The translations under genes were made by a program, and so were the position numbers. A stretch of DNA of 33,702 bases from Candidatus Gastranaerophilales bacterium (GTDB lineage: Bacteria > Cyanobacteriota > Vampirovibrionia > Gastranaerophilales > Gastranaerophilaceae), in assembly GCA_947625495.1 (NCBI GenBank), contig CANQOQ010000002.1, positions 186,306 through 220,007 on the forward strand, read 5' to 3'. The stretch's first letter is position 1, and every line of letters starts with the position of its first letter. Positions 806-6,092 of this stretch are shown here, piece by piece. The notes under the pieces were generated by a model. That model was not told the DNA's origin. It did no database searches and worked only from the letters and a program-made list of their open reading frames with translations.

Positions 806-1564
806 ATGGGAACATGGGACGAGTCTGAGCATCCACGTGATGACGAAGGGAAATTTACATATAAAAACGGAGGTAGTGATAGTGTTAAATCCGATGAAGA
901 AAAAATGCAAAGACGAGCAGACCTTCTATATACGTCAATGAAAGATAAAGAACCAAAAACAGATTATTCAACCATCGGACTTGGAAATTACAAAAAAGAA
1001 AAAGGTTCTGTTACCGGCGGAGCTGCAAATATAGACAATTCAAATACTGTTAAAACTATCGATAATACTGTATTTTCTGATAATGCATTGAAGAAAACAA
1101 GAAGTTTCATAACAAAAGCTGAAGATTTTAAAGCTGATGCTTATAAAGACCAAGCTGGGAAATGGACAATCGGATATGGACATACGGGTAAAGTTGATGG
1201 TAAAAAAATTACTGCGGGGATGAAAATTACTCAAGAAAAAGCAGAAGAATTATATAGAAAAGATTTTGAAATTTATAGTAAAACTTTAAAACATGTGAAA
1301 GTTTCACTTACTGAAAATGAAAAAGTTGCTTTAACAAGTTTCATATATAATGTTGGTGAACCAAGATTTCTATCATCATCTGTATTTACTAAAATCAATC
1401 AAGGAGATAGAAAAGGTGCTGCAGATGCTATGTTATTATACAATAAAGTAACAACCAAAAAGGAAGTTAATGGCAAAATTATTTCTGTAAAAGTATTTAG
1501 TCAAGGTCTTTATAATAGAAGGATTAAAGAAAGAAATTTATTTCTTACACCAGATGAGAAATAA
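806..1564 (+). CDS. GH24 (T4/lambdoid-type) lysozyme with extra N-terminal region
   Basis: A 252-residue protein whose C-terminal part (about 93-250) is a phage-type lysozyme that would cleave the MurNAc-GlcNAc bond of peptidoglycan. The catalytic segment has E106, D115 and T121 followed by IGYGHTG; the spacing E-x8-D-x5-T is that of T4 lysozyme E11/D20/T26. The usual Glu-Gly is Glu-Asp here. No signal peptide is present. The first ~90 residues are not lysozyme: they start with DESEHPRDDEGKFT, a HPRDxxGKFT-type motif that I associate with N-termini of phage structural proteins, then a charged and a Thr/Asn-rich linker. The start is fixed by AAGGAG 8 nt upstream. It ends 5 nt before the convergent gene at 1570. 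It could be a prophage-derived lysin or a secreted antibacterial effector. Confidence 0.85.
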   Translation: MGTWDESEHPRDDEGKFTYKNGGSDSVKSDEEKMQRRADLLYTSMKDKEPKTDYSTIGLGNYKKEKGSVTGGAANIDNSNTVKTIDNTVFSDNALKKTRSFITKAEDFKADAYKDQAGKWTIGYGHTGKVDGKKITAGMKITQEKAEELYRKDFEIYSKTLKHVKVSLTENEKVALTSFIYNVGEPRFLSSSVFTKINQGDRKGAADAMLLYNKVTTKKEVNGKIISVKVFSQGLYNRRIKERNLFLTPDEK

Positions 1565-1980: not shown

Positions 1981-2073
1981 TAGACAGCAGCTTGTAGTTT
2001 TAATACAACATAATAATAAAAAAATATCAGGAAAGGAGAAAATAAATGGGAACATGGGATGAGAGTGAACAGC

Positions 2074-2177
2074 GGATTTTGCGTATAGTGGAGCGGAGCG
2101 AAACTCGAAGAAGTGAATGCCCGAAGTGAGCAGACACAGAGTGTTGCGAATGACAGGGCAGAGAGTGAGCAAAATCC
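2074..2177. repeat. GC-rich palindromic element inserted in lysozyme gene
   Basis: The element is bounded by a perfect 9-bp inverted repeat, GGATTTTGC (2074-2082) and GCAAAATCC (2169-2177). Inside are nested complements (TGCCC/GGGCA, then ACAC/GTGT), so the whole can fold as one long imperfect hairpin. Its base composition is clearly richer in G than its surroundings. Comparison with the intact copy at 806 shows it is an insertion between the GAGAGTGA and GATGACGAAGG blocks. Its ends resemble those of the element at 5860-5934 (ATTTTnCGTA start, GAGC..AAAA end). It carries no gene. It resembles in style the short palindromic elements known from Rickettsia and REP-type repeats; identity with any named family is not claimed. 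Confidence 0.65.
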
Positions 2178-2698
2178 AAGACAGTGATGACGAAGGGAAA
2201 TTTACATATAAAAATGGAGGTAGTAGTGGTAAATCCGAAGAAGAAAAAATGCAAAGACGAGCAGACCTTCTATATACGTCAATGAAAGATAAAGAACCAA
2301 AAACAGATTATTCAACCATCGGACTTGGAAATTACAAAAAAGAAAAAGGTTCTGTTACCGGCGGAGCTGCAAATATAGACAATTCAAATACTGTTAAAAC
2401 TATCGATAATACTGTATTTTCTGATAATGCATTGAAGAAAACAAGAAGTTTTATAAAAAAAGCTGAGGGATGTAAACTTAATGCATATAAAGATACAAAA
2501 GGAATATGGACAATCGGATATGGACATACGGGTAAAGTTGATGGTAAAGAAATCACTGCGGGGATGAAAATTACTCAAGAAAAAGCAGAAGAATTATACC
2601 GAAAAGATGTCAGAGAACATGCATTACCTCTTAAAGATATTAAAATACCATTAAGTGATAATGAAAAAGTTGCTTTAACAAGTTTAATATACAACATT

Positions 2699-2707
2699 GG
2701 GGGGGGG
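2699..2707 (+). repeat. G9 homopolymer in lysozyme coding sequence
   Basis: Nine consecutive G residues inside an AT-rich coding region, at the point where the lysozyme frame breaks. Tracts of this length are prone to slipped-strand mispairing; G7 or G10 would be in frame. Confidence 0.8.
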
Positions 2708-2919
2708 AAAAAACAGAATTTAGGAGTTCAACAACATATAAAAAACTACTTGTTGGAGATAAAAAAGGTGCCGCAGATGCTATGTTAAAATATTGTAAAG
2801 AAACTCAAACAAAGAATATTAATGGAAAAACAGTTAAACAAAAGATATTTCGTCAAGGTTTGTACGATAGAAGAGTTAGAGAAAGAAACTTATTTCTTAC
2901 ACCTGACGAAGAATAAAGT

Positions 2920-3288
2920 TTAACTTTCATCTCCATATATATAACAGCCCAGTCGACCGTTTGTTTTATAGTCTGTAGGATCACATTCATCTTTTGGAAC
3001 GGCTCCGTCGGCTTTAAAAAATATTTCAAACTCAGTTGTTGTATATGCATTAATACCATTTAAAGGTTTACCGGAATCAGTAAATATAACCTTGTTTTTA
3101 TAAGCGACATCTCCTTTATTATTAATGTATATTTTTTCCCAATGATTTGGGTCTTTATCATACAATAATTCAGAGACTTTCATAATTTCATGTTTTTTGT
3201 ATCCAAATATTTTAATATTTTGTTGGTAAAAAATAGTAACGAAAGAGATAAATAATATGATTATTAATATAATAAAAAACTTTTTCAT
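2920..3288 (-). CDS. Small membrane-anchored protein, paralogue of 1570-1944
   Basis: A 122-residue protein with MKK, a hydrophobic segment (about 3-22) and an extracytoplasmic part. It shares with its paralogue GYKK, a NNKGDVAYKNKVIF-type block, ADGAVPKDECD and the final LGCYIYGDE, while the segments between have diverged strongly. It is convergent with the lysozyme pseudogene: its stop is 3 nt from that gene's original stop. It remains intact although its partner is broken, which would suit a protective function retained after loss of the partner; that is inference only. Function unknown. Confidence 0.8.
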   Translation of the reverse strand: MKKFFIILIIILFISFVTIFYQQNIKIFGYKKHEIMKVSELLYDKDPNHWEKIYINNKGDVAYKNKVIFTDSGKPLNGINAYTTTEFEIFFKADGAVPKDECDPTDYKTNGRLGCYIYGDES

Positions 3289-5747: not shown

Positions 5748-5861
5748 ATGAAAGTAAGAACATCGGTAAAACCGCTTTGCGACAAGTGCAAAGTAATAAA
5801 AAGAAAAGGCAGAGTAGCAATAATTTGCGAAAATCCTAAACACAAACAAAGACAAGGCTGA
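5748..5861 (+). CDS. rpmJ: 50S ribosomal protein L36 (37 residues)
   Basis: A short gene encoding [20 protein letters not shown] and ending in KHKQRQG. It is the zinc-binding L36 type: C11, C14, C27 and H32 form the Cys3His ribbon. It begins 21 nt after infA with AAGGGAAAAGAA upstream. The stop codon TGA (5859-5861) coincides with the first bases of the GC-rich insertion that follows, so the insertion lies exactly at the 3' end of the gene and leaves the protein intact. Confidence 0.95.
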
Positions 5862-5934
5862 TTTTCCGTAGGGCGGAGTTGAGGCGGAGCCGAACGAGCC
5901 CGTGGGGGCAACAACCCGTAACGAGCGGAAAACC
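5860..5934. repeat. GC-rich palindromic element between rpmJ and rpsM, first part
   Basis: TTTTCCG (5862-5868) pairs with CGGAAAA (5926-5932), and inside are GTTG/CAAC and GCCC/GGGC complements, so it folds into a long imperfect hairpin. G+C is far above that of the flanking genes. The edges resemble the lysozyme insertion at 2074-2177: ATTTTnCGTA at the left, GAGC then AAAA at the right. It contains no credible gene. Confidence 0.55.
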
Positions 5935-5954
5935 GAAGGTTTTAAAGCGAGTTT

Positions 5955-6031
5955 GCTCGGGTTGTGCAAAAAGGAATTTCAAGACAGCGAAATTGCGCAG
6001 AGCCGGTTTAAAGGTGCCACTGCACCCGAGC
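5955..6031. repeat. GC-rich palindromic element between rpmJ and rpsM, second part
   Basis: GCTCGGG (5955-5961) pairs with CCCGAGC (6025-6031) across 63 nt, immediately after the first element and of nearly the same length (77 vs 75 nt). CAAGACAG at 5980-5987 also occurs at the right edge of the lysozyme insertion. The pair may be one compound insertion. A reading frame from 5879 to 6067 crosses it but looks spurious. Confidence 0.45.
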
Positions 6032-6092
6032 CCTAAAGGAAATCAACAAAAAAAGCCAAATAAGTAAAACAATATAAATAAAAGGAGAGACT

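Follow-up and report, generated by a model that had tools for sequence, protein, structure and literature searches.

Introduction

Among the repeats described in bacteria, those closest in kind to the insertion analyzed here would seem to be the cyanobacterial small dispersed repeats (SDRs) of Nostoc, the likeness being one of features. The Nostoc SDRs are about 21–27 nt in length; and Elhai et al., in 2008, reportedly observed in Nostoc and its relatives that the stems of these repeats vary in a compensatory manner, that the repeats insert in a nested fashion into others, and that an RNA intermediate might be suspected. MITEs, ERIC, and similar repeats have inverted ends and occupy transcribed intergenic regions; group IIC introns insert into the sense strand just after terminator stems, without target duplication; and the Rickettsia palindromic elements insert in frame and leave the reading frame open.

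The SDRs of Nostoc and relatives are cited in PMC2884548 and PMC4390886, the latter placing the insertion of SDR5 at a precise position in HIP1. The REP, REPIN, and BIME elements appear in PMC3116915 and PMC3733652 as intergenic hairpins with alternative complementary stems that form tandem arrays. Within the open-licence literature, we found no paper that by its title or abstract described the modules reported below, whose main features beyond those of a previous sequence-only reading of this DNA are the compensated stems, the nesting, and a strict sense-strand placement at stop codons, at the T-runs of terminators, and in loops.

A structured insertion in a lysozyme copy

The window, by which we mean the whole stretch of 33,702 nt that was analyzed, corresponds to positions C2:186306-220007 of a genome (G000) of 1.88 Mb in 51 contigs that is 97% complete. 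The features relevant to the insertion are the following.

2072..2182, + strand: inserted A-type module of 111 bp, composed of GC and a 9-bp stem arm through to the complementary arm and AAGAC, with the edges inferred from the filled and empty pairs of relatives
2074..2082, + strand: 5' arm of the terminal stem P1, GGATTTTGC
2169..2177, + strand: 3' arm of the terminal stem P1, GCAAAATCC
2178..2182, + strand: 3' tail AAGAC, unpaired and conserved in the family
2045..2916, + strand: host gene, lysozyme copy 2, broken by the module and then by a G-run near 2700
806..1564, + strand: lysozyme copy 1, intact and without the module

The palindromic insertion that the sequence-only reading had proposed in the lysozyme copy proved to be real: GGATTTTGC and GCAAAATCC are exact 9-bp inverted repeats at the module ends, and the segment 2074-2177 is predicted to adopt a branched fold (z -3.1) that surpassed those of all 200 shuffled sequences. 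The inverted arms indeed lie at 2074-2177, which positions had been taken as the edges of the element, but by comparison with the relatives those edges are at 2072-2182 (GC...AAGAC). As had also been stated, the insert is absent from the intact copy at 806-1564, the spacing of the flanking homology jumping from 1240 to 1347 bp across the insert; that copy, however, is located 1240 bp upstream and not the 130 codons previously given.

The insert introduces in-frame stops into lysozyme copy 2, and the outcome of the module insertion at this locus would be a dead gene copy. The comparison formerly drawn with the Rickettsia palindromic elements is thus appropriate with respect to a short palindromic insert within a gene, but weak in that those elements keep the frame open whereas the lysozyme insert ends it. 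Moreover, some 5 bp of host sequence present in copy 1 are missing at the insertion site, which loss indicates that the insertion, or what followed it, was less than perfectly clean. The second break in copy 2, the G-run near 2700 (window 2700-2707), at which positions copy 1 reads otherwise, would make copy 2 a pseudogene even without the module; similar runs of C and G are also found at L038 and L149, so that slippage or a sequencing artifact is possible at 2700-2707.

Small genes of exported appearance on the reverse strand (1-492, 1570-1944, and 2920-3288) alternate with the lysozyme copies as a repeated unit, and these genes might encode proteins that inhibit the lysozymes or serve as their immunity partners.

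Copies in the genome and in its relatives

A self-search of the genome with the 104-bp query returned 9 hits at E<=10, and one with the segment beside rpmJ returned 23, several in each instance coming from common arrays; so that the outcome of no further copies, which the earlier reading had named as the one contrary to a dispersed family, did not occur. Full or partial relatives were located on contigs C2, C4, C7, C14, C17, C19, C24, C26, and C46, including arrays after groEL (C14 and C19), dnaK (C2, at 139 kb), and rpsN (C46)—these three gene names being a reading of the translated gene ends—along with a degenerate array after rplC. The start of C26 (L036) and the end of C24 (L037) consist of one common tandem module, a probable cause of the break in the assembly at those two ends. 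Two further features are present in the window itself.

5860..5985, + strand: diverged related module between rpmJ (stop TGA at 5859-5861) and rpsM
5987..6033, + strand: trailing partial 5' module of the rpmJ-side array, in a layout shared with relatives

The insert in the lysozyme and the element after rpmJ, whose edges had been described as alike, are related; but the latter is another module, with a different, partly mismatched stem and the trailing partial module, and the segment 5860-6033 has its matches among further copies of the same kind as itself.

With a 116-bp query, matches were obtained in 22 of 58 genomes, namely in 21 of the genus (G000 included) and in one from another family of the order. 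Of the 41 genomes of the genus, 37 contained a module-start pattern, controls giving far fewer matches; across the order it was present in 89 of 117, many single matches among which may be due to chance. A stricter junction pattern recovered 63 stretches in genome contigs, almost exclusively from Gastranaerophilales, 61 of which were placed by the record titles (Gastranaerophilales, Cyanobacteria, or plain bacterium), with L267 being also inspected. Two matches from Desulfo- records (L293 and L313) were discarded as chance matches in coding sequence, as was the only match in viral contigs, situated inside an ordinary phage coding sequence. The proposal of a dispersed non-autonomous family of this genome therefore holds as to the dispersion and the many copies, but the family extends over the genus and the order as well.

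Module ends and compensated stems

A module is laid out as GC, an arm of 8–9 nt, a body, the complementary arm, and AAGAC. By this pairing rule we distinguished 218 modules in the loci examined, most of about 80–130 bp within a range of about 70–219. For the test of the stems we used 84 modules chosen by their junctions alone, with pairing left out of the choice: the terminal stems were perfect over 8 bp in 69 of these, compared to a mean of 13.1 and a maximum of 24 in 5000 permutations of the arms. The same 84 contained 13 different perfect stems in which complementarity was kept, the commonest being GAAATTCC (23) and GGATTTTG (17); and in the A-type cluster one and the same body occurred with GGATTTTG, GGTTTTTC, GGTTTTTA, GGAAAACC, or GGTTTTTG. 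The interior of the A-type modules has a small hairpin plus a longer arm, TGCCC/GGGCA, whose inner pairs vary on both sides. Among the nine stems with one mismatch in the junction-anchored set, that mismatch was G-T in four and A-C in three, while the module interiors had 43 G-U versus 6 A-C, an excess partly built in because the structure prediction allowed G-U. The sense strand folded more stably than the antisense in all 8 clusters folded. These results show that the module ends are defined by base pairing and not by a fixed sequence.

The compensatory changes in the stems—both in the 69 of 84 that were perfect and in interior pairs—are shared with the SDRs of Nostoc, as is the wider cyanobacterial lineage; the SDRs, of about 20 bp, differ from the modules, mostly of 80–130 bp, in size. 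With the REP, REPIN, and BIME elements, as these are presented in the papers cited above, the modules have in common the alternative complementary stems, the tandem arrays, and the intergenic location; but those elements display a GTAG or CGTC tag beside the stem, whereas the modules end in GC...AAGAC without any such tag.

Arrays, mosaics, and nesting

The modules form tandem series and mosaics, or lie nested within other repeats. The head-to-tail joints read AAGACA-GCG, AAGAG-GCG, or AAGAA-GCG, and in many arrays the last unit is a partial 5' module, followed by a terminator. In the head-to-tail arrangement the modules differ from the REP and REPIN units, which form inverted pairs. At the end of groEL, different species bear different sets of modules at one identical base, which indicates that the site is a hot spot whose content turns over; the arrays would grow and change through tandem duplication and recombination.

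Nested insertion in other repeats without duplication is a further trait shared with the Nostoc SDRs, and among the repeats thus entered are CGTC-like REPs. A composite repeat (TGTCCGA ... hairpin ... hairpin ... GACACT[A/G]GATTA) is present in many copies in G032, G019, and G030, with one copy seen in G000, and at its loci (L239-L250, L216-L223, L229-L238, and L043) contains several module types at fixed places. In L247, L248, and L218, a module of another type (TTACAAAACGAACAGC...), without GC/AAGAC ends, is found at one fixed place in this repeat.

Filled and empty sites

The repeat GTCATGCTGAACT(T/C)GTTTCAGCATCT occurs both empty and filled, with nothing duplicated and nothing lost. GTCATGCTGAACT^TGTTTCAGCATCT and ...ACT^CGTTTCAGCATCT are found empty and filled (L234 and L259), and the insert in those instances is GC...AAGAC. 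In the composite repeat, two different modules are inserted 1 base apart in the common loop of different copies, other copies being empty. Some insertion sites, that of the lysozyme included, lose or gain 1–5 bp. Genes that share the start ...HPRDDEGKFTYKNGG were found at 23 sites in 9 of the 41 genomes of the genus, with 4 of those sites (in G000, G034, G010, and G027) interrupted by a module at, or a few bases from, one codon; at another locus of G027, a truncated module lies in a neighboring copy of such a gene. Across L151-L173 that start is common and the sequences downstream vary, a pattern suggestive of one tag attached to varied proteins.

The many copies at many different sites, together with the clean empty counterparts, indicate that the modules have been mobile; and that the lysozyme insert belongs to a mobile family of structured modules we regard as close to certain. 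Could these, then, be ordinary MITEs, that is, DNA transposons that retain inverted ends after an internal deletion and that a DDE transposase moves as double-stranded DNA? The modules are short, non-coding, multi-copy, and bounded by terminal inverted repeats; they can break a gene; and they resemble MITEs and ERIC in size, inverted ends, and transcribed intergenic location. The target-site duplications whose search had been suggested were nevertheless absent from the clean filled and empty pairs of the GTCATGCTGAACT repeat as well as of the outer element. A transposase, furthermore, should conserve an end sequence, whereas 13 perfect stems among 84 modules means ends that vary yet stay complementary; the orientation of the modules is fixed relative to transcripts, as detailed below; and no parent element was found among the families searched (Y1 and RT). 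An origin as MITEs is consequently highly unlikely.

Placement at stop codons, T-runs, and loops

The placement was evaluated in 98 distinct arrays from loci that had been collected through similarity or the module-start pattern and, in the case of groEL, through a deliberate search. In 29 of them an ORF of 80 codons or more had its stop codon within 12 nt of the left edge, and in all 29 the offset was -2, so that the junction reads TA|G and the first base of the element, a G, is the third base of the stop. These 29 arrays represent 12 gene-end peptides: 13 come from groEL and 16 from 11 others. Apart from these stops, ORFs of that length had none within 20 nt of an array edge, and none of the 98 arrays had a stop facing it at the right edge on the opposite strand. 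Upon lowering the ORF cut-off to 30 codons, we counted 33 stop-codon arrays, plus two at -3, which two cases fit two rpmJ sites having TGA before the module (L254 and L260). In the rplC-rplD gap, readable in 23 of 30 loci, the ends without a module were TAA in 12 of 12 and those bearing one were TAG in 9 of 11; the groEL ends without modules were either TAA or TAG.

Such regularity bears on the alternative in which no transposition occurs at the module level, the modules being functional 3'-UTR RNA structures spread by recombination, with only the gene-sparing insertions surviving. The differing module content of arrays at one site between species and the position of arrays in or after essential genes (groEL, dnaK, rplC, rpsN, and rpmJ) would be in agreement with that view; but selection leaves the exactness of the TA|G edge unexplained, with no other stop in its vicinity, and coding sequence and the loops of intergenic repeats contain modules too. 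This alternative we accordingly judge to be rather improbable, though selection may still have some part in upholding the site preference.

A second class of sites comprised T-runs, which abutted the left edge in 17 of the 98 arrays, the 15 pure runs being of 7–10 nt. Immediately before the T-run there was a stem of 6 bp or more in 15 of the 17, one of 5 bp in another, and none in the last, compared to stems of 6 bp or more before 112 of 407 other T-runs. No A-run abutted the right edge in any of the 98 arrays.

The third class consisted of loops. At 33 further sites, namely those whose flanks could be joined, several of which are copies of one outer element and hence not independent, a predicted hairpin loop held the site in 25, versus 202 of 586 random positions; CGTC-like REP palindromes and the composite repeat TGTCCGA ... 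GACACT[A/G]GATTA are among them. The stop codons themselves were in predicted hairpin loops in 6 of 9 groEL and 0 of 12 rplC sequences, against 799 of 1837 in the control. Gene orientation at the array flanks as taken from mechanical ORFs ("toward" in 59 versus 47) proved too noisy a measure to be relied upon. Taken from the stops, T-runs, and loops, the data show that, with respect to the transcript or hairpin that hosts them, the modules are oriented in one way only. The location at stop-codon and terminator sites, and in the non-photosynthetic Gastranaerophilales, sets them apart from the SDRs of Nostoc.

Mode of insertion

The fixed orientation, the absence of target duplication, the unpaired or terminal positions in transcripts, and the pairing-defined ends together point to a single strand that inserts into the sense strand. 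We therefore consider it rather probable that these are non-autonomous, structure-defined modules that insert strand-specifically as RNA or single-stranded DNA. Under such a scheme, the module would enter as a single strand—either RNA, to be copied back subsequently, or a hairpin of single-stranded DNA—at unpaired positions of the sense strand, be that the mRNA or the non-template DNA strand, which mode of entry would leave no target duplication and fix the orientation; the joining enzyme would be supplied in trans. The TA|G rule of the modules recalls the cleavage of mRNA by RelE-like toxins, which cut a stop codon after its second base, and the T-run rule recalls group IIC introns.

One candidate for that enzyme is a Y1 (RAYT) transposase, by which REPIN-like or IS200/IS605-like elements are moved as single-stranded DNA. 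The hairpin ends, the strand specificity, the head-to-tail arrays, and the lack of target duplication all fit single-strand transposition, and Y1_Tnp genes were present in 11 of 32 relatives and in 3 of the 10 genomes of a second set, G032 having three. The 97%-complete G000, however, gave no match to PF01797 (Y1_Tnp), in which respect it differs from the REP and REPIN systems with their RAYT transposase; nor was Y1_Tnp found in the module-bearing G010, G017, G025, G026, and G034. The neighborhoods of the Y1 genes were also discarded as a source of the module ends, no module junctions flanking those genes: of the loci from relatives, L365 has short module-like matches adjoining, L366 short matches only, and L364 none. 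Nor does the stem have beside it a constant tag such as GTAG, and we hold this route to be doubtful.

If, alternatively, the module RNA became linked to a target, either RNA or DNA, and a reverse transcriptase then copied it, in the manner of group IIC introns after terminators, the sense orientation, the T-runs after terminator-like stems, the loops, and the lack of target duplication would resemble the behavior of those introns, with which the modules share insertion in the sense strand just after terminator stems. They differ from such introns in occurring also at stops and loops, and are only about 100 nt long. An Rfam scan of the window plus 15 loci returned above threshold only a tRNA and no intron or ribozyme, and PF00078 (RVT_1) was detected in 5 of 10 genomes tested, being absent from G000, G032, G030, G010, and G017; a reverse transcriptase as the common helper was accordingly rejected, since the enzyme is missing from half of those genomes. 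Retro-insertion of this kind is thus conceivable, though unlikely. The matching-ended transposase that the sequence-only reading had recommended seeking did not appear among either the Y1 or the RT families.

A more speculative version of insertion as RNA, which we propose tentatively and give a low probability, would be that of elements acting at the RNA level: a folded RNA of ~100 nt would become attached to other transcripts, either at a 3' end or where they are unpaired—at U-tract ends, between bases 2 and 3 of the stop, or in loops—and then be written back, neither a Y1 transposase nor the RT of a group II intron being involved.

Implications

Repeats of very small size whose stems are compensated and whose insertions are nested constitute a standing puzzle as to how they move. 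The modules provide a large, order-wide set of such repeats with clean empty sites, which sites, along with the sharp stop rule (TA^, completed by the G of the element) and the fixed orientation, make the mechanism testable. In the genomes of these bacteria, the modules account for GC-rich islands after housekeeping genes and, probably, for some of the breaks in the assemblies.
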